Below, piece by piece: positions 7,058 to 53,412 of a stretch of 64,000 nucleotides of DNA. How positions within the stretch are numbered: the stretch's first letter is position 1; each line of letters opens with the position of its first letter. Made by a program: the position numbers and the translations under genes. Below the pieces are notes generated by a model. It did not search any database, had not been told where the DNA came from, and was given only the letters and a program-made list of their open reading frames with translations. The stretch comes from Bacteroidota bacterium (GTDB taxonomy: Bacteria > Bacteroidota > Bacteroidia > Chitinophagales > Chitinophagaceae): the NCBI GenBank assembly GCA_026391125.1, contig JAPLEO010000001.1, forward strand, positions 1-64,000, given 5' to 3'.

Positions 7058-7325
7058 CTATATGCTTGGTGGCCAAGTGAAAAATGGAATAGAGAATAAT
7101 TTCATGCGCAATTCAGAGTTAAATTCCAACTTAATATCACCGGGCTGTTCTGATAATACAACCTTGCTTGTTGAGGCATTACCTGCATAATAAGTACCCG
7201 GACCCAATGATCTTGCCCTAAATGCTCTAATATCATTTGTGCCTCCTGCAAAAAAAGCCTTCATAAATGGAAGCACATCAAAATTGGCATTGAAAAAATA
7301 ATTGTTTGACAGTGCATTGAAGCAT
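7058..7325 (-). pseudogene. Remnant of Omp85/BamA-TamA-like outer-membrane protein (surface antigen D15 domain)
   Basis: Minus-strand frame reads (F)NALSNNYFFNANFDVLPFMKAFFAGGTNDIRAFRARSLGPGTYYAG...EQPGDIKLEFNSELRMKLFS, with stops immediately upstream (TGA, TAG). The FAGG..IRAFR.RSLGPG / GD.KLE.N.E.R.KL signature is the Omp85 C-terminal barrel; the rest of the gene is absent. Confidence 0.75.
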
Positions 7326-40107: not shown

Positions 40108-41505
40108 TTAAAAATAGAAATAATTGAGCAATACAGAGGGTAGCACTCCAATTAAAACGATCAAAGCCGCCACAAAAATCAATCCCGCCTTAAATCCAGT
40201 GGTGATTTCTGAGGTTTCTGCAACGCCTTCTTTGAAGTACATCGACTGGATAACCCTGAAGTAATAATACACACTTACTGCAGCAAAAAGTACCGCAACT
40301 ATCACTAGCCAAAGGCCAGTTCCAGTTTTAACTACACTCGCCAACATATAGTATTTCGCAAAGAATCCAGCGGTTAATGGGATACCAGAAAGTGATAAGA
40401 GACAAATGGTAGTAGTTAATGCCAATACTGGTTCGGTTTTAGCGAGTCCGTTAAACCCATCCAGCGTATAATCCTTCATTTTAATCAGTACCGCAAATAT
40501 TCCGATGGTAGCTAAACTATAGGCTGTTGCATATAAAAGGATACCCTCTTTAGCTATATCATTTGCTGAATAAAGCGCAAATAGCATAAAGCCTGCTTGA
40601 GCAATACTTGAATATGCAAGCATACGCTTAACGCTCTGCTGAAATACTGCTGTAATATTTCCGACCAAAAGAGTAGCTATGATCACGAACGATAATAAGA
40701 TCTTCCAAGTTGGACCGAGTATGGTTGACTGCCCTTCCATTAAACGAATGAAAGCAAAGAATCCTGCGGCTTTAACAATGGTTGCCATGAATGAAGTGAA
40801 TACACTTGGTGCTCCATCATATACATCTGGTGTCCAGAAATGAAAAGGAGCAGCTGATACTTTAAAACACATGGAAACAAATAATAAAAGTAAACCGGCG
40901 ACTTCTAAAAAAGATACTTTAGATGCAGAGAGGCTGCCATTCGGTGCTGTAAAAATTGATGGAGATACGATTCCAAAAGATCCAGTTGCGCCATAAATCA
41001 TGGCGATGCCCATCAACATGATCCCAGCAGTGAATGCCCCCATTAAAAAATACTTTAAAGAGGCTTCGTTGCTTTTTAAATTACGCTTATCTGAACCAGT
41101 TAATATGTAAAGCGGGATCGACAAAATTTCAATACCCAAGAACAACATCAATAAACTATTGAAACCACATAGAATACTCACACCGCATAAAACAAAGAAT
41201 ATTAACGCAAAATATTCAGCAGGATAATTTCCGGCTGTTTCAATATCCTTTCCACTAATTAGTACATAGATGAAAGTGGCAGCAATTGCAATGCTATTAA
41301 AGAATAATCCAAATTTTTGAAATCTTAATAGCTCGTGACTATTTACAACAACGGTGTATACACCATAAGTTTGTAATACGTTTGCTATCAACAATAATAG
41401 TAAGCCAGCCATTGCTACATACTTCAGTGTTGATTTGTTTTTGAGTAATATGCCGCTAAACATCATTACTACTCCTAATAAAGCCGAAACTATAATTGCG
41501 TTCAT
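40108..41505 (-). CDS. nuoN: NADH-quinone oxidoreductase subunit N
   Basis: Proton_antipo family; position in nuo operon after nuoM; LGIEILSIPLYIL, PFHFWTPDVYDGAP. Confidence 0.95.
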   Translation of the reverse strand: MNAIIVSALLGVVMMFSGILLKNKSTLKYVAMAGLLLLLIANVLQTYGVYTVVVNSHELLRFQKFGLFFNSIAIAATFIYVLISGKDIETAGNYPAEYFALIFFVLCGVSILCGFNSLLMLFLGIEILSIPLYILTGSDKRNLKSNEASLKYFLMGAFTAGIMLMGIAMIYGATGSFGIVSPSIFTAPNGSLSASKVSFLEVAGLLLLFVSMCFKVSAAPFHFWTPDVYDGAPSVFTSFMATIVKAAGFFAFIRLMEGQSTILGPTWKILLSFVIIATLLVGNITAVFQQSVKRMLAYSSIAQAGFMLFALYSANDIAKEGILLYATAYSLATIGIFAVLIKMKDYTLDGFNGLAKTEPVLALTTTICLLSLSGIPLTAGFFAKYYMLASVVKTGTGLWLVIVAVLFAAVSVYYYFRVIQSMYFKEGVAETSEITTGFKAGLIFVAALIVLIGVLPSVLLNYFYF

Positions 41506-41545: not shown

Positions 41546-42912
41546 TTAACGGTTAGCGAATATTGCACTTACGGTATCTTTTGTTAGATCAAGCATTGGT
41601 TGAGGATATACTCCCATTACCAATACAATGATCACCAATATACTCAATACCCATTGTACGTTGGTACTTACTTCAACAGCTTGTAGCGTTTTTTCTACTG
41701 TGTTTCCGTAAAATATTTTTTGAATCATATTCAATGTATACACTGCAGCAAGAATAATGCTGATACCGGCTATTGCAGCAATCCAAACATTAAACTGGAA
41801 CAACCCATTAAACATCAAGAACTCACCCACAAATGCATTGGTTAATGGTAATGCTACGTTTGCTAGGGCCATCACCACAAATAAGATCGCCAATACTGGA
41901 GCCTTTTGTGCCAATCCACCCAAGTCACTAAACTTACGAGTACCCAATTGCTGCTCTATCACGTCTGCAACGATCCACAGACCAATGACATTGATACCGT
42001 GGTTAAACATTTGGATCATAACACCTTCTAGTCCAATTTGATTTTGCACAAAAATGGCGGCACACATTAAACCAATATGCGCAATAGAAGAATATGCAAT
42101 CAACCTTTTAATATCATCTTGACGAATAGCAATTAATGATGCATAGATCATACCAAACACAGAAAGTACTACTACTAACATGCTATGCGAATGAACACCC
42201 ATCGGAACCATTGGAACCAACCAACGAATCACTGCAAAAATTCCCATCTTCACCATCACACCACTCAAGATCATAGTTGTAGCAGTTGGTGATTGCTCAT
42301 AAGCATCGGGCTGCCAGGTATGGAAAGGAAATATTGGCATCTTGATCGCAAATGCAATAAAGAACAATGCGAACACCCAATTTTGTTGGTGCGCATCTAA
42401 TTGAGCATGGTAAAAGCTCTGCATTGCAAATGAATGATCAGGAGTTTGTGCATACACATATAATAATCCAACCTTTCTCCACCCCAAATAGAACAAAGAA
42501 AATAAACAGGTATCAACGCTAATTCCCAAAAGAAATAAAACAATAAAGCATCTGATGCCAAGAAAACTCCTAGCAATCCCGCTTGTGTTAATAGCATCAA
42601 TCCATAAAATGCAGCAGAACGCTGATACACATTTTTATATGTTGCAGCAAAAACTACGGGAAAAGAAATGGCAGTTAATAAACAAAGCATTTTGCTCATG
42701 CCATCTTGCAACAAACTAAAACGGCTACCCAAGCCTGGTAACCAAGCAGCATCATAGGTAAGAGCGCCTTTTGTAAAGACCGCCATTAACGACAATACCA
42801 ATGTAGCCAATGAAGATACAAGGGCTAAAGCCTTAATTGAAGACGAATCTTTTAGCAGAAATACTGCTAGTCCGCTCAGCAATGGAATCAATATCAGTAA
42901 AAGAGGAATCAT
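41546..42912 (-). pseudogene. nuoM: NADH-quinone oxidoreductase subunit M, frame-disrupted (ORFs 42397..42912 and 41546..42529)
   Basis: The N-terminal ORF ends homology at ..FFWELALIPVYFLCSIWGGER. The C-terminal ORF resumes at GLLYVYAQTPDHSFAM...FPFHTWQPDAYEQSP in another frame. The break is near 42465-42478. Confidence 0.88.
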
Positions 42913-42928
42913 ATAATTTCTTTAACGC

Positions 42929-44860
42929 CTAGGCCATTTTAAAAAAACGGTTCAAATAATACATGATGGTGATATCATTAAACCAAACCAATACAAATAC
43001 AACAATCGCCAATACCATGATCAATAAGTAGTTCCCAACTTGTCCGCTTTGAATTAAACGCAACTGTCTAGAACCATAACCCACTAATTTTCCAACACCA
43101 TTCACACTCGCATCGATCACATTTTTCTCTACAATATTTTTAAAGAATCCTCCCAACGCATTCAAAGGATTCACAACAACGGCATCATACAACTCATCTA
43201 CATACCATTTGTTTTCTAAAACTTTTGCGATACCCGTATTCTCTTCTATTGTTGGTTGATATTTTTTATAACTACTCACTGCATAAACAATTACAGCAAC
43301 GATCAACAAAGTAGAAACGATCAAATAAGTCCACTCTTGCGAAGCTTCTAAATGATGTTGCCCTGCAATAGCCGTTGAACCTGCAAATATTGGTGCAAGA
43401 AAATGTTCTAAACTATGAGAATCTTTTGCAAATAATTCGGGAATACCTACCCATCCACCAATCACTGATAATATCGCCAACACGATCAATGGGATGGTCA
43501 TTGCAGAAGGACTTTCATGCAAATGATGTTCTTGTTCATGCGTTCCTCTAAAGCCACCTAAGAAGGTTAGCGTGTATAATCGGAACATATAAAATGCAGT
43601 CATTAATGCTCCACCCAATCCTACATAATAATAGATTGGATTTTTTGCAAGTGCTGCCATTAAAATTTCATCTTTTGAAAAGAACCCAGAGAATGGAGGA
43701 ATACCAGCGATTGCCAAACAAGCTAATAGGAAAGTGATATGTGTGATGGGCATGAACTTTTTCAAACCACCCATTTTACGAATGTCTTGCTCGTGGTGCA
43801 TCGCATGAATCACAGAACCCGCTCCTAAGAATAATAAAGCTTTAAAGAATGCATGTGTCATCACATGGAACACCGCTCCAGTATAAGCACCAACACCTAA
43901 GCCTAAAAACATATATCCTAACTGACTCACAGTTGAGTAAGCCAATACTTTTTTAATGTCGTTTTGCTTGATCGCAATTGTAGCAGCAAAAATAGCAGTA
44001 GCCAATCCTACAATAGCAACAACCGTTTGAGTGCTTGGGGCCATTGTATAAAGAATGTTACTACGAGCAATCATGTAGATACCAGCAGTTACCATGGTTG
44101 CAGCATGGATCAATGCAGACACTGGAGTTGGACCCGCCATCGCATCTGGCAACCAAGTGTATAAAGGAATCTGCGCGCTCTTACCCATGGCACCAATAAA
44201 TAACAAAAGGGTGATCGCAGAAATATCGAATGCAGATAAATTTCCTACTTGTGCAAACACATCAGAATATGTTGCAGTACCTAATTTAAAGATCAACCAG
44301 AATACAGCTAATAAAAATCCAAGGTCTCCAATCCTGTTCATCACAAATGCTTTCTTAGCAGCGTAGTTGTAATCATTATTCTTGAACCAGAATCCAATCA
44401 ACAAATATGAACACAAGCCAACACCTTCCCAACCAATGAACATGATCACATAGTTCGCACCTAATACCAACAACAGCATGGAGAATACGAATAAATTGAG
44501 GTAGGCGAAATAACGTCCAAAATGCTGAGGTTCTTCCTCATGCATATATGCCGTTGAATAAAGGTGTATCAAGAAGCCGATACCAGTAATGATCAACAGG
44601 AAAAGTGCAGAAAGTTGGTCAACCTGAAAAGCAAAAGGAATCACCAAACTCTTTACCGATATAAAGTTAAAGAGGGTAATCACCGAAGCTCCGTTAGCTT
44701 TTACATCAAAAAACACCAACACGCTTACAACAAAAGATGCAAGAATTGCGCCACTGCCAATGATGCCGATCAAAGATTTCGACAACGATTTCCTTCCCAA
44801 TCCATTGATCAGAAAACCCAGCAGGGGAAATAGCGGAATTAAATAAACAAGTTTACTCAT
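42929..44860 (-). CDS. nuoL: NADH-quinone oxidoreductase subunit L
   Basis: MFIGWEGVGLCSYLLIGFW, PLYTWLPDAMAGPTPVSALIHAATMVTAG. Confidence 0.97.
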   Translation of the reverse strand: MSKLVYLIPLFPLLGFLINGLGRKSLSKSLIGIIGSGAILASFVVSVLVFFDVKANGASVITLFNFISVKSLVIPFAFQVDQLSALFLLIITGIGFLIHLYSTAYMHEEEPQHFGRYFAYLNLFVFSMLLLVLGANYVIMFIGWEGVGLCSYLLIGFWFKNNDYNYAAKKAFVMNRIGDLGFLLAVFWLIFKLGTATYSDVFAQVGNLSAFDISAITLLLFIGAMGKSAQIPLYTWLPDAMAGPTPVSALIHAATMVTAGIYMIARSNILYTMAPSTQTVVAIVGLATAIFAATIAIKQNDIKKVLAYSTVSQLGYMFLGLGVGAYTGAVFHVMTHAFFKALLFLGAGSVIHAMHHEQDIRKMGGLKKFMPITHITFLLACLAIAGIPPFSGFFSKDEILMAALAKNPIYYYVGLGGALMTAFYMFRLYTLTFLGGFRGTHEQEHHLHESPSAMTIPLIVLAILSVIGGWVGIPELFAKDSHSLEHFLAPIFAGSTAIAGQHHLEASQEWTYLIVSTLLIVAVIVYAVSSYKKYQPTIEENTGIAKVLENKWYVDELYDAVVVNPLNALGGFFKNIVEKNVIDASVNGVGKLVGYGSRQLRLIQSGQVGNYLLIMVLAIVVFVLVWFNDITIMYYLNRFFKMA

Positions 44861-44913: not shown

Positions 44914-45249
44914 TTAATTTTTCAATCTGTTCAAAAAGTTAATATCAACCGAATGCGTATTTCTAAACAACATCACAATAATGGCCAATCCCACACTCAC
45001 CTCCGCAGCAGCCACCACCATAATGAAGAATACAAATAATTGTCCGTCTGAACCTACTGTTGACGCTTTATCAGAAACGGATGCTGCAGCCAAGTGCATT
45101 TTTGAAAATGCTACTAGCAACAAATTCACCGCATTGAACATTAACTCAATACACATAAACACAATGATCACATTGCGGCGTGTTAGAGCACCAATGATTC
45201 CGATGCTAAATAAAACTAAACAGAGATAGATATAATATTGTATTGGCAT
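44914..45249 (-). CDS. nuoK: NADH-quinone oxidoreductase subunit K
   Basis: [41 protein letters not shown]. Confidence 0.96.
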
Positions 45250-45267: not shown

Positions 45268-45771
45268 TTAATCTTTTTTACCCATTACGATTGCACCAAC
45301 CATGGCGCTCAAAAACAAAACACTAGTAATTTCAAATGGCACTACATAATCATTAAATAGTACTCTTCCTAAATTCTTGATCAATCCAATATCGCCCCCA
45401 GTTGTCATAGCAACTTTTGTTCTCAAATCAACTGCTTGTCTGACTAAAGAAACAAACACCATTAAGAAACAACCTCCAGAGACAACACCAGCCACTTTCA
45501 TCCATAATCCTTTTTGTGGTTCGTTCTGTTGATTTAAGTTCATCAACATGACTACAAACAAGAACAATACCATGATGGCTCCTGCATACACGATAATATT
45601 TACGATGGCCAAGAACTGCGCATTCAATAAAATGTAGTGCCCTGAAATGGCAAAGAAGGTAACAACCAACCACAATACACTGTATATGGGATTCTTGCTG
45701 ATCAATACCATGATGGCACTAAAAATGGCCAACGCACTTAAAAAAAAGAATAATATTTCTGTAGTACTCAT
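45268..45771 (-). CDS. nuoJ: NADH-quinone oxidoreductase subunit J
   Basis: NPIYSVLWLVVTFFAISGHYILLNAQFLAIVNIIVYAGAIMVLFLFVVMLMN. Start placed at the internal MSTTEIL, because the longer ORF overlaps nuoI. Confidence 0.94.
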   Translation of the reverse strand: MSTTEILFFFLSALAIFSAIMVLISKNPIYSVLWLVVTFFAISGHYILLNAQFLAIVNIIVYAGAIMVLFLFVVMLMNLNQQNEPQKGLWMKVAGVVSGGCFLMVFVSLVRQAVDLRTKVAMTTGGDIGLIKNLGRVLFNDYVVPFEITSVLFLSAMVGAIVMGKKD

Positions 45772-45823
45772 TGTTGCTTTAATTAGTAGTTGACCTTTTG
45801 TATCAACCAGTAATTGTAATTTA

Positions 45824-46366
45824 TTAATTGCTCCTTGCTGGACCCTTTGCTTTTGCAAATCCTTCTGGATCTGTTAATGGATTTGGAATGACCAATTCAT
45901 TCTTTCCATAAATAAATCCTGTACGATTATAGTTAGCAGGTGCAAATGTTTCACTCAAAAAGATCGCTTCTTTCGGACATGCTTCTTCACAAAGTCCACA
46001 GAAAATACAACGCAGCATATTGATCTCATATTTTGCTGCATATTTTTCTTCACGATACAAATTCTCTTCCCCAGGTAAACGCTCGGCGCCTTCCATAGTA
46101 ATTGCTTCAGCCGGACAAGCTACCGCGCAAAGTCCACACGCTGTGCAACGCTCACGACCTTCTTCATCACGATTCAAAACGTGTACGCCACGGAAAACCG
46201 GACTAAACTCACGCTTCTTTTCTGGATAACGGATCGTAGGTTGCTTCTTGAACATATGACTGAAAGTAATAGCCATACCCTTTAAAATATTGGGTATGTA
46301 CAAGCGTTCGATGAATGTCATCGGCTTGCGACTTACTTCTTGTACTCTATTAGTTAATGCCTCCAT
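45824..46366 (-). CDS. nuoI: NADH-quinone oxidoreductase subunit I (2x[4Fe-4S])
   Basis: CTACGLCAVACPAEAI and CIFCGLCEEACPKEAI. Start placed at MEALTNRV, because the longer ORF overlaps nuoH. Confidence 0.96.
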   Translation of the reverse strand: MEALTNRVQEVSRKPMTFIERLYIPNILKGMAITFSHMFKKQPTIRYPEKKREFSPVFRGVHVLNRDEEGRERCTACGLCAVACPAEAITMEGAERLPGEENLYREEKYAAKYEINMLRCIFCGLCEEACPKEAIFLSETFAPANYNRTGFIYGKNELVIPNPLTDPEGFAKAKGPARSN

Positions 46367-46403
46367 GTAATTAATCTCTTTGCTTGCAAAAATATTTTTT
46401 ATT

Positions 46404-47450
46404 CTACCCGTGATATAAGATCCATGCACCAGTTGCCAGCATATTTGCCAATGCCAATGGGATCAAACTTTTCCATCCTAAATTCATCAACTGATCATAA
46501 CGGAAGCGCGGGATAGTCCAACGAATCCACATGAATATGAAAATGAAAATCACAATTTTAATCAGCAATGCACCAACACCCACTAGTGCTGCCATATTTT
46601 GTGGTAATATTTTTTCATCGAAGAAAGGAATATCAAATCCACCAAAATAAAGCGAAGCCATGATCGCACTACTCATGATCATGTTGATATATTCAGAAAA
46701 TAAATAGAATCCTAATTTCATAGATGAATACTCTTGGTGGTATCCAAAGTTTAATTCGTTCTCTGCTTCTGGCAAATCGAATGGTGTTCTATTACACTCT
46801 GCCATGGCACAAATAAAGAATAACAAGAAACCCAAAGGTTGATACGCGATATTCCACAAATGACCAGGAGCCATTTGTTGATTTACGATCTCTCTTAAGC
46901 TTAACGTATTAGTGGTCATTAATAAAGCGATCAACGCAATGCCCATTGCTAGTTCATAACTGATAGCTTGTGATGCACCGCGCAATGCAGCCATCAAAGA
47001 AAATTTATTATTCGAAGCCCAACCTCCGATCATAATTCCATATACACCCAAACTCACAACTCCAAAAACATATAAGATTCCAATATTGATATCTGCAATT
47101 TGCAAATCAATTTCTCTACCAAATAAATGTACGGTGCTTCCCCAAGGGATCACAGCACAGGTCATTAAAGCAGCGGTCATTGCTAAGCCTGGTCCTAATA
47201 TGAACAATGCTTTATTAGAAGAGCTAGGAATGATCTCTTCTTTCATGATCAATTTTAATCCATCGGCCAAAGGTTGAAATAAACCAAACGGACCAGCTCT
47301 TTCAGGACCTGGACGATCTTGCAAAATAGCAGCCACTTTACGTTCAGCAAAAGTGGTGTAGAGCGCAATACCAAGACTCGCAAAAACGATGATGATGATC
47401 AAGATCAGTTTTTCGAGTACCAACAGCATATCTAAAGAAAGTAGTGTCAT
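46404..47450 (-). CDS. nuoH: NADH-quinone oxidoreductase subunit H
   Basis: ERKVAAILQDRPGPERAGPFGLFQPLADGLKL, AMAECNRTPFDLPEAENELNFGYHQEYSSMK. Confidence 0.97.
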   Translation of the reverse strand: MTLLSLDMLLVLEKLILIIIIVFASLGIALYTTFAERKVAAILQDRPGPERAGPFGLFQPLADGLKLIMKEEIIPSSSNKALFILGPGLAMTAALMTCAVIPWGSTVHLFGREIDLQIADINIGILYVFGVVSLGVYGIMIGGWASNNKFSLMAALRGASQAISYELAMGIALIALLMTTNTLSLREIVNQQMAPGHLWNIAYQPLGFLLFFICAMAECNRTPFDLPEAENELNFGYHQEYSSMKLGFYLFSEYINMIMSSAIMASLYFGGFDIPFFDEKILPQNMAALVGVGALLIKIVIFIFIFMWIRWTIPRFRYDQLMNLGWKSLIPLALANMLATGAWILYHG

Positions 47451-48632: not shown

Positions 48633-50012
48633 CTATACAGGCACATGAATTGGATCCGCATAATGCGCCAACCCATAATTCCTTGTTTGAGCTTCAGCAG
48701 CATGGGTAACATGCCATTCAAACTCATCTCTAAAATGGCGAATTGCAGCAGCCACTGGCCATGCTGCAGCGTCACCTAACGGACAGATCGTATTTCCTTC
48801 AATCTTGCTTTGGATATCCCATAGCAAATCGATATCACTTATTTTTCCTTCGCCTTTTTCTAAACGCAATAATAATTTTTCCATCCAACCAGTCCCTTCT
48901 CTACAAGGAGAACACTGACCGCAACTTTCGTGGCGATAGAATCTGGCTAATGAATACGTATTTCTTACCACACACTGGTCTTCATCTAACACAATGAATC
49001 CACCAGAACCCATCATCGAACCTGTTGCAAATCCACCATCACTCAAACTTTCATAGTTCATGTAACGGGTTTCGCCTTTTGCAGTTTTCAATAAAAGATT
49101 TGCTGGAAGAATTGGTACAGATGATCCGCCAGGGATACAGGCTTTTAACCTTTTTCCGTTTGCGATACCACCACAATATTCGTCGCTATAAATAAATTCT
49201 TCTACAGAGATGGTCATATCAATTTCGTAAACGCCAGGTTTATTGATATTACCACATGCAGAAATTAATTTTGTTCCAGTTGATTTACCAACTCCAATTT
49301 TCGCATACTCTTCTCCACCCTCATTAATGATGGGAACTACAGCTGCTAAGGTTTCTACGTTGTTTACCACTGTTGGTCTGCCCCAAGCACCTTTGATCGC
49401 AGGGAAGGGAGGTTTGATACGTGGATTACCACGCTTACCTTCTAATGATTCAATGAGTGCAGTTTCTTCACCACAGATATAGGCACCTGCGCCACGTTGT
49501 ACATAGATCTCGCAATCGAATCCAGTACCTAATATATTTTTTCCTAAAAATCCATTTGCTTTTGCTTCGGCAATGGCTTGTTCCAAAATGTCTGGGATCC
49601 AAGCATATTCACCGCGGATATAGATATAAGTAGCATGACTTCCTAAAGCATAAGAAGCAACGATCAATCCTTCAATTAATAAGTGTGGAATAAATTCCAT
49701 CAAGTAACGATCCTTGAAAGTTCCAGGCTCACTTTCATCTGCATTACAAACCAAGTGACGTGGAACGCCTTCTGGTTTTGCAATAAAGCTCCATTTCATA
49801 CCTGCAGGGAATCCAGCGCCACCTCTACCACGAAGACCACTCTTCTTCACTTCTTCCACGATCTCTTCCTGAGTCATGGTTTTCAGGGCCTTCTCAACGC
49901 TGCGATATCCACCTTCACGGCGATACACATCGAAATAACGAATTCCTTCCACGTGTGCTTTTTCTAATAATAATTTTCTTCCCATTGTATTCAATTGCGT
50001 GGCTTTCGCCAT
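48633..50012 (-). CDS. nuoF: NADH-quinone oxidoreductase subunit F
   Basis: SGLRGRGGAGFPAGMKWSF, NADESEPGTFKDR, ESCGQCSPCREGTGW. Start moved to MAKATQ (MGRKLL at 49985 also possible), because the longest ORF overlaps nuoE. Confidence 0.96.
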   Translation of the reverse strand: MAKATQLNTMGRKLLLEKAHVEGIRYFDVYRREGGYRSVEKALKTMTQEEIVEEVKKSGLRGRGGAGFPAGMKWSFIAKPEGVPRHLVCNADESEPGTFKDRYLMEFIPHLLIEGLIVASYALGSHATYIYIRGEYAWIPDILEQAIAEAKANGFLGKNILGTGFDCEIYVQRGAGAYICGEETALIESLEGKRGNPRIKPPFPAIKGAWGRPTVVNNVETLAAVVPIINEGGEEYAKIGVGKSTGTKLISACGNINKPGVYEIDMTISVEEFIYSDEYCGGIANGKRLKACIPGGSSVPILPANLLLKTAKGETRYMNYESLSDGGFATGSMMGSGGFIVLDEDQCVVRNTYSLARFYRHESCGQCSPCREGTGWMEKLLLRLEKGEGKISDIDLLWDIQSKIEGNTICPLGDAAAWPVAAAIRHFRDEFEWHVTHAAEAQTRNYGLAHYADPIHVPV

Positions 50013-50034
50013 TCGTTGATTTAAATATTTTCTA

Positions 50035-50544
50035 CTAATTATTGGCAGCTGCAGCGGCTCTGCATTCTGCAATAATTGCGTCCACTTTTTCTTTTGTTAA
50101 ATGCTCACGATAATGTTTACCCAACTGCATCATCGGTGCATAACCACAAGCACCAAGGCACTCGGCGGTTTTTAAAGTAAACAAACCATCAGCAGTTGTT
50201 TCACCAGCTTTGATCCCTAGTGTTTGACTGATATAGGCGATGATATTATCACTACCATTTAACATACATGGACCAGTCTGACAAACTTCAAACACATATT
50301 TTCCTACTGGCTTAGTATTATACATGCTATAGAAAGTAGCCACTTCATACACTTCGATAGGCTCGATCTGTAAGAGTGATGCCACATAATCCATTGTTTC
50401 AGCGCTTAACCATCCACCAAAATTGTCTTGCGCTAAATGCAATAAAGGCAAGAGTGCACTCTTCTGCTTTCCGTCTGGATAGCGAGCGATGATCTCTTTA
50501 ACCTTTGCTAGTTTTTCTTCTGAAAATTGTACCATATCAATCAA
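50035..50544 (-). CDS. nuoE: NADH-quinone oxidoreductase subunit E
   Basis: VYEVATFYSMYNTKPVGKYVFEVCQTGPCML, AECLGACGYAPMMQ. Confidence 0.96.
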   Translation of the reverse strand: MIDMVQFSEEKLAKVKEIIARYPDGKQKSALLPLLHLAQDNFGGWLSAETMDYVASLLQIEPIEVYEVATFYSMYNTKPVGKYVFEVCQTGPCMLNGSDNIIAYISQTLGIKAGETTADGLFTLKTAECLGACGYAPMMQLGKHYREHLTKEKVDAIIAECRAAAAANN

Positions 50545-50570: not shown

Positions 50571-51809
50571 CTACGCATCCAACTCACCTGCGATCAAATT
50601 CAAACTACTCATTACTACAATCGCATCGCTCAACATACCACCAACAACTAATTCAGGATATGCTTGATAATAAATAAAGGATGGTCTACGGAAGTGCAAA
50701 CGAAATGGTGTTCTTCCGCCATCGCTTACTAAATAAAATCCTAACTCACCATTACCAGCTTCAATAGAATGATACACTTCGCCTTTAGGCATATCAATCT
50801 CTCCCATTACAATTTTGAAATGCCAGATGAGCGATTCCATTTTTGTATAAACGTCTTCTTTAACAGGCAGGTAATATTCAGGAACATCTGCATGAAACAC
50901 TTCTGCTTCTGCACCTTTGAATTCTTGTACTTTTTTATAGGCTTGGTTAAGAATGCTCAAGCTCTGCCACATTTCTTCGTTACGTACTAAGAAACGATCG
51001 TAACTATCACCAGTTTTTCCAACTGGAACTTTAAAATCAAAATCTTCGTAACTGCTATACGGACTATGAACTCGCACATCATAATCAACACCAGCGGCGC
51101 GTAAATTCGGACCAGTAAAGCCATAATTCAAAGCGCGTTCAGCACTGATCGGACCCGTACCAATAGTACGTTCCATGAAAATTCTGTTACGTGTAAATAG
51201 GTTTTCTAATTCACGCAATGCAGCAGGATATTCTTTTAAGAATTTCTCGAGTTTCGTAAACGCTGTATTTGTGAAATTCCTTTCAAAGCCGCCAATACGC
51301 CCAATATTAGTAGTAAGACGGGACCCACATATTTCTTCATATATTTCATAAATTAATTCGCGGTATTGCATGATGTACATGAACCCAGTATAAGCACCGG
51401 TATCTACACCCATGATAGAATTACAGATCAAGTGATCAGAGATCCTTGATAATTCCATAATGATGATACGCAGATAGTCAACACGTTTAGGCGTTTGAAC
51501 TCCTAATAATTTTTCGCAGGTCAAATGCCAGCCCATATTATTCAAAGGACTACTGCAATAATTCAAGCGATCTGTAATCGTAGTAATTTGATACAGTGGT
51601 CTGCGCTCAGCCAGTTTCTCAAATGCACGGTGGATATAACCCACTGTTTGTTCTGTAGAAACAATTTGCTCACCATCTAATTCCATGATATTTTGAAACA
51701 CACCGTGTGTAGCAGGGTGGGTTGGACCAACGTTCAATGTAGTGGTCTGTTTCTCAATGGAACCTTCAGGTAATTTAATATGGTGTTGATGATGTTCTGT
51801 CATATCCAA
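50571..51809 (-). CDS. nuoD: NADH-quinone oxidoreductase subunit D
   Basis: LNVGPTHPATHGVFQNIMELDGE, GYIHRAFEKLAERR, RPSFIYYQAYPELVVGGMLSDAIVVMSSLNLIAGELD. Confidence 0.97.
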   Translation of the reverse strand: MDMTEHHQHHIKLPEGSIEKQTTTLNVGPTHPATHGVFQNIMELDGEQIVSTEQTVGYIHRAFEKLAERRPLYQITTITDRLNYCSSPLNNMGWHLTCEKLLGVQTPKRVDYLRIIIMELSRISDHLICNSIMGVDTGAYTGFMYIMQYRELIYEIYEEICGSRLTTNIGRIGGFERNFTNTAFTKLEKFLKEYPAALRELENLFTRNRIFMERTIGTGPISAERALNYGFTGPNLRAAGVDYDVRVHSPYSSYEDFDFKVPVGKTGDSYDRFLVRNEEMWQSLSILNQAYKKVQEFKGAEAEVFHADVPEYYLPVKEDVYTKMESLIWHFKIVMGEIDMPKGEVYHSIEAGNGELGFYLVSDGGRTPFRLHFRRPSFIYYQAYPELVVGGMLSDAIVVMSSLNLIAGELDA

Positions 51810-51849: not shown

Positions 51850-52356
51850 TTAACCTCTACCAAACATCTGATCGTCTTTATCGATACGTGTTCTTTCTTC
51901 TAAAGGATATTCTTTTCTTAAAGGGAAATAATCCATTTCGTCTACGTTCAATATACGTTTCAGGTTTTCGTGACCAACAAAGTTCACTCCAAAAAAATCG
52001 TAGGTTTCTCTTTCCATCCAATTGGCTGCAGAGAATAATTTGCTAGCAGTAAATACATCTGGAGTATTGATGTCTGAATACACGGTAAAGCGAATTCTAA
52101 CATTGTCTCTCAAATTGTGTAAGTGATACACCACTGCTAATTCGCGACCAGGTTTATCTGGATAATTCACAGCAGTAAGATCTGTCATAAATTGAAAATT
52201 CAGATCTGCCTCGTCGAATAAAAATTGTAACACTTTCAGGTTCTGATCCTTTGGTGCTTCAAAACTGAGCATGCCATAAGGCGATTCAAAATTGGAAACA
52301 AGGTCTCCAAATTTTTCAGTTAGTCTTTGTTGAATATGTTCTTGTGTTAATACCAT
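51850..52356 (-). CDS. nuoC: NADH-quinone oxidoreductase subunit C
   Basis: FSAANWMERETYDFFGVNFVGHENLKRILNVDEMDYFPLRKEYPLE. Confidence 0.96.
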   Translation of the reverse strand: MVLTQEHIQQRLTEKFGDLVSNFESPYGMLSFEAPKDQNLKVLQFLFDEADLNFQFMTDLTAVNYPDKPGRELAVVYHLHNLRDNVRIRFTVYSDINTPDVFTASKLFSAANWMERETYDFFGVNFVGHENLKRILNVDEMDYFPLRKEYPLEERTRIDKDDQMFGRG

Positions 52357-52366
52357 TTCGTTTTTA

Positions 52367-52957
52367 TTATTCTATTCCGTAACTATTCATCAACGCTTTG
52401 TATTGATCGCTATTTCTTCTTCTGATACTTTCCTGCCCAACTAGTTCTTGCACTTTCATAAAACCGTCGAGGACTGCTTCCGGACGTGGAGGGCAGCCAG
52501 GAATATATACGTCAACTGGAATTACTTGGTCAATGCCTTGTAGTACACTATATGTATCAAAAATACCACCGCTGCTGGCGCAAGCACCCATGGCAATTAC
52601 CCAACGAGGTTCGGCCATTTGAAGGTATACCTGACGAACAACTGGTCCCATTTTCTTAGAAATGGTTCCCATTACCATCAACAGATCGCACTGACGGGGA
52701 GAGAAACCAACCCTTTCAGCACCAAAACGTGCTAGATCGTAGTGCGATGCCATCGTTGCCATAAACTCGATCCCACAACATGAGGTTGCGAATGGCAAAG
52801 GCCATAATGAATTTTTCCTTGCTAATCCAACCACATCGCTCAAGCGAGCAGAGAAAAAGCCTTCTCCAGCATAGCCTTCCGGTGCTTCTGCCATAGAAAC
52901 AGCAGTTGCAATTTTGGTTTCTGTTGGATGAATATTAAATCGTACTGGACGTGACAT
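52367..52957 (-). CDS. nuoB: NADH-quinone oxidoreductase subunit B
   Basis: SLWPLPFATSCCGIEFMA, FSPRQCDLLMVMGTISKKMGPVVRQVYLQM, YIPGCPPRPEAVLDG. Confidence 0.97.
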   Translation of the reverse strand: MSRPVRFNIHPTETKIATAVSMAEAPEGYAGEGFFSARLSDVVGLARKNSLWPLPFATSCCGIEFMATMASHYDLARFGAERVGFSPRQCDLLMVMGTISKKMGPVVRQVYLQMAEPRWVIAMGACASSGGIFDTYSVLQGIDQVIPVDVYIPGCPPRPEAVLDGFMKVQELVGQESIRRRNSDQYKALMNSYGIE

Positions 52958-53001: not shown

Positions 53002-53412
53002 CTAGTCTTCCCACTTTAAAGCTCCTTTCTTGATGATATAGATAAACCCTACTAGAAAAAAGCCAACGAACATGAGCAATGCACTGAATCCAGCCCATCC
53101 CAGTTCTCTAAAGTTTACCGCATATGGATAAAAGAAAATCACTTCAACGTCAAACAGCACAAAAAGGATCGCCACCAGAAAATACTTGATAGCCATTGGT
53201 TGGCGAGCATTTCCGTGGGTTTCGATTCCACTTGTAAAGTTTTCTAATTTGTCTGCAGTTTTGCGCTTAGGTCCAACCCAAGCTGAAAGTCCAATCATGA
53301 AGGCTACAAAGCCAGCTGCGAAGATCAATTGGATCCCGATAGGGAGGTAATTTGCTGCAGAATTTGATTCATTAACATCTAATAAAAAAGAAATCCAACT
53401 CATGAGAAGCAT
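53002..53412 (-). CDS. nuoA: NADH-quinone oxidoreductase subunit A
   Basis: NFTSGIETHGNARQPMAIKYFLVAILFVLFDVEVIFFYPYAV. Confidence 0.95.
   Translation of the reverse strand: MLLMSWISFLLDVNESNSAANYLPIGIQLIFAAGFVAFMIGLSAWVGPKRKTADKLENFTSGIETHGNARQPMAIKYFLVAILFVLFDVEVIFFYPYAVNFRELGWAGFSALLMFVGFFLVGFIYIIKKGALKWED

Follow-up and report, generated by a model that had tools for sequence, protein, structure and literature searches.

A 61-nucleotide gap splits nuoM within an otherwise intact complex I operon of an environmental Chitinophagaceae genome

The nuoM gene of the studied genome (41546-42912, minus strand) lacks 61 nucleotides that are present in every close relative aligned, and is thereby divided between two reading frames inside a complex I operon that is otherwise intact. 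On balance, this is best read as a real deletion by which the strain or population sequenced lost nuoM function very recently, a reading which includes a deletion carried as a population variant.

Genome and complex I operon

The window, that is, the whole stretch of 64,000 nucleotides analysed, is contig C55 of a genome that spans 3.79 Mb in 152 contigs (some shorter than 2 kb) and was estimated to be 98.6% complete and 1.85% contaminated. Its close relatives among the Chitinophagaceae come from freshwater and other environments, and most of their genomes were assembled from metagenomes. The 14 genes of the complex I operon occupy the minus strand between nuoA (53412) and nuoN (40108). It had been proposed from the sequence alone that the 13 nuo genes other than nuoM are intact, and this was supported by near full-length, collinear counterparts in four relatives as well as by family matches (Table 1). 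The complement and order of nuoA to nuoN are those of a 14-subunit operon, and all gene lengths except that of nuoM are as in the four relatives.

Table 1 Features of the complex I operon in the window
Feature	Coordinates	Strand	Remarks
nuoN, intact	40108..41505	-	family match and relatives
nuoM 3' part, relative codon 168 to stop	41546..42472	-	shifted frame; 95% aa identity to closest relative
deletion junction	42473..42474	-	61 nt of all readable relatives missing here
nuoM 5' part, codons 1-146 (...WGGE)	42475..42912	-	97.9% aa identity to closest relative; frame continues to stop 42397
nuoL, intact	42929..44860	-	family match and relatives
nuoK, intact	44914..45249	-	family match and relatives
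nuoJ, intact	45268..45858	-	family match and relatives; true start probably ~29 codons into ORF
nuoI, intact	45824..46429	-	family match and relatives; true start probably ~21 codons into ORF
nuoH, intact	46404..47450	-	family match and relatives
nuoG, short form, 365 aa	47464..48561	-	equally short in relatives; family match
nuoF, intact	48633..50072	-	family match and relatives; true start probably ~29 codons into ORF
nuoE, intact	50035..50544	-	family match and relatives
nuoD, intact	50571..51809	-	family match and relatives
nuoC, intact	51850..52356	-	family match and relatives
nuoB, intact	52367..52957	-	family match and relatives
nuoA, intact	53002..53412	-	family match and relatives

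Elsewhere in the window, a minus-strand segment at 7082-7294 (about 69 codons between stops) matches the C-terminal part of a relative's 769-aa protein (77% over 64 aa) and has full-length paralogues on contigs C25 (62%) and C137 (39%) of the same genome. The segment resembles what is left of an outer-membrane-type gene.

Structure of the nuoM lesion

As the sequence-only reading had noticed, NuoM homology runs in one frame and resumes in another. The first stretch starts at 42912 and covers codons 1-146, up to ...FFWELALIPVYFLCSIWGGE (...IWGGE) at 42475, while its frame continues to the stop to give 171 aa. The homology restarts at 42472 in a different frame, which has at most 327 aa, and extends to 41549. 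When the gene was aligned with the nuoM of L032-L038, the seven relatives closest to it (77-88% nucleotide identity), as that reading had recommended, the gap between the two stretches was the sole indel and measured exactly 61 nucleotides. The loss thus amounts to 20 codons plus one base (20 1/3 codons), which shifts the frame and falls within the 20-25 residues and 60-75 bp that had been predicted.

In the numbering of the relatives, the lost residues are 147-167, KRIAVTFKFFVYTFIGSLLML (19 complete codons and portions of two others). Aligned with E. coli NuoM, they make up the greater part of the helix next after the Glu-bearing one (FFWE), whose conserved glutamate has been cited as Glu144 in E. 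coli (PMC13073174). This following helix (KRIAVTFKFF-YTF-GSLLM) is absent from the window nuoM and present in the relatives, in agreement with the R-x-x-A/V-T-x-K-F-F-I-Y-T..GS..ML-type helix originally named as missing. No continuous NuoM frame of about 470-510 aa was found in the window nuoM, whereas the relatives have frames of 468-506 aa.

The profile scores assign both fragments to the NuoM family. The C part alone passes the cut-off of the NuoM model TIGR01972 for the bacterial 14-subunit complex I (316.3 bits against 263.8; Proton_antipo_M, PF00361), and the N part reached 96.7 bits over profile positions 3-155. The intact nuoM product of the relatives matches E. coli NuoM (3rko_M) with E = 6e-75. 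The window gene differs from this family in the 61 missing nucleotides and the shifted frame, and no single open frame spans the family.

The junction is clean, without N or extra bases. Its microhomology, as read from the aligned sequences, is 0 nt if position 147 was Lys, the residue of the nearest relatives, and does not exceed 1-2 nt if Arg stood there. No direct repeat flanks the breakpoints in the sequence of the closest relative, so a repeat collapse by the assembler is not indicated; the one 8-nt repeat there (spacing 62) lies off the breakpoints, and a deletion mediated by direct repeats was not supported. The junction sequence had no match among IMG/VR contigs.

Frame integrity of the assembly and of relatives

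Frame splits were counted among about 107 genes that have a relative's counterpart at at least 60% identity, comparing about 660 kb of the source genome with about 500 kb of genome G055 and 76 kb of G098. Only nuoM was frame-split, and the one further flagged case was a spurious overlapping ORF at the window edge. The window taken alone (35-38 orthologues) gave the same outcome. The assembly is therefore not generally error-prone.

Of 80 loci taken from genomes of GTDB species, 78 have a single frame across the nuoM site and two end at a contig end (NuoM lengths 439-506 aa; two partly cut, yet with the motif). A genus-wide search matched 134 of 147 genomes, with matches breaking at query position 87/88. 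For the genomes with both sides listed (G113, G126, G139, G098, G115, G128 and G023), the two pieces were exactly 61 bases apart, and matches extended no further than about 9 bases across the junction in any listed genome apart from the source genome. A relative with the same split ORF, which was said to argue for a fixed change, was thus not found among the loci and genus genomes readable at the site. Since the relatives are intact, a fixed or clade-wide change of nuoM was rejected.

Age of the lesion and selection on nuoM

Lineage-specific codon changes were counted against the sister genome G126 (96% amino-acid identity in NuoL), with G098 as the outgroup. In nuoM, 6 amino-acid and 46 synonymous changes have accumulated on the own branch after its divergence from G126, compared with 7 and 43, respectively, on the sister branch (Fisher p = 0.77). 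Likewise, nuoN, L, K, J and I showed no amino-acid excess on the own branch (31/172 vs 37/157, p = 0.35); the test stops at these genes because the contig of the closest relative ends inside nuoI, leaving out nuoA-H. Conservation of both nuoM halves equals that seen in relatives (dN/dS of about 0.03-0.04), and no decay (further indels, stops or relaxed dN/dS) was seen in comparison with them. An old or fixed pseudogene was therefore rejected.

Neutral evolution of nuoM along the entire branch would predict about 346 amino-acid-changing substitutions, compared with the 6 seen. The unconstrained share of the branch is accordingly at most about 3.4% (95% upper limit of the count; approximate, NG86 rates). 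Therefore, the event either lies at the very tip of the lineage or is not real.

Back-up respiratory enzymes

An intact second complex I cluster (nuoABCDHIJKLMN, 11 subunits, without nuoEFG) is present on contig C119 of the source genome (L001:8991-19001, G000). Its NuoM has orthologues in the same close relatives (96% identity in G126, 92% in G115, 85% in G055 and 84% in G116), so contamination was rejected; the 96% identity to the closest relative indicates that the cluster is native to the lineage. The second complex I occurs in some genus members (G126, G098, G115, G116, G055 and G021) and was not found in G010, G011 and G017. Its gene content equals that of the 11-subunit complex I described for Desulfitobacterium, for which ferredoxin has been proposed as the electron donor, although the donor of 11-subunit enzymes is unsettled (PMC11238625). 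The cluster encodes an enzyme separate from the 14-subunit complex I; given about 30% identity between its NuoM and the broken one, the subunit is unlikely to serve as a direct substitute.

Furthermore, an NDH-2 candidate of 432 aa was found on contig C135 (L134:4962-6260), with an NDH2_C domain over the Pfam cut-off; it reached no specific NCBIfam equivalog. Na+-NQR did not emerge as a further back-up, with no NqrF over the curated cut-off in the source genome. These enzymes make it plausible that a loss of the NADH-driven pump could be survived. However, all relatives carrying the same second complex I keep nuoM, and redundancy alone therefore does not predict its loss.

Discussion

In the sequence as assembled, the gap takes out most of the helix after the Glu-bearing helix and shifts the frame, and neither joint reading of the two frames nor a ribosomal frameshift can restore the missing residues. 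If the deletion is real, intact NuoM would not be made, the distal membrane arm (NuoM and NuoL) would probably not be correctly built, and NADH-driven proton pumping by the 14-subunit enzyme would be lost. In a reconstitution test, E. coli Delta-NuoM membranes were among those in which proton pumping by complex I could not be detected (PMC13073174). It has also been reported that laboratory strains lost complex I by transposon or frameshift events (PMC8795404). The present case shares with these mutants a single broken gene in a nuo operon that is otherwise intact, and differs in coming from an environmental genome under no known selection and in being seen in an assembly.

The sequence-only reading had left it between a real lesion of recent date, a variant within a sub-population and an error of assembly. 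All three still stand, in narrowed form: the change is neither shared by nor fixed in relatives, it is not old, and it is not one of many errors in a poor assembly. We somewhat favour the real deletion, in view of the single clean gap between well conserved flanks, the uniqueness of the split among the orthologues, the repeat-free breakpoints, the presence of back-ups and the precedents above. Points against it are that the lesion is known from one 152-contig assembly and nowhere else, that selection on nuoM shows no relaxation, as an artefact would also give, that relatives with the same second complex I retain nuoM, and that the short microhomology leaves slippage between direct repeats as no explanation.

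A local assembly or consensus artefact, in which nuoM is intact and the 61 bases were lost through a chimeric read, a strain-mixture bubble or contig joining, is the less probable account and deserves serious weight. It would explain why both halves remain conserved and why the lesion appears in no other assembly or relative examined, and it fits a fragmented assembly whose closest named relatives are nearly all metagenome-assembled. Against it stand the lack of a second frame split, of any flanking repeat to mislead the assembler, and of N or extra bases at the junction. As a special case of the real deletion, only part of the population may carry it, the assembler having chosen that allele; this would fit a very recent origin and assembly from a mixed population, and we hold it possible but rather unlikely.

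If the deletion is real, the allele most likely sits transiently at the lineage's tip and does not represent an adaptation at the species or clade level. It seems quite improbable that the lineage has just begun to abandon the NADH-driven complex I of 14 subunits while retaining NDH-2 and the 11-subunit enzyme, with decay yet to begin. We give almost no credence to a working split NuoM made from both fragments by reinitiation or ribosomal frameshifting: second-frame starts do overlap the end of the first ORF (ATG 42424, GTG 42457), and the conserved Glu of the N part and the lysine-bearing Proton_antipo_M part are kept, but 21 residue positions, most of a helix conserved in nearly all relatives, are gone in any frame, no relative has a split gene, and no Shine-Dalgarno-like stretch precedes either start, a weak argument as Bacteroidota often lack such sequences.

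The case is an ordinary one, a null allele of a known gene by a known kind of lesion and with no new mechanism, in a relative of uncultured-type Chitinophagaceae, and under either reading little changes beyond the source genome. If the gap is an artefact, automatic annotation would wrongly call complex I of this genome defective. If the deletion is real, it would be a further natural example of the loss of a core respiratory subunit beside back-up enzymes, so young that the operon is otherwise unaffected.
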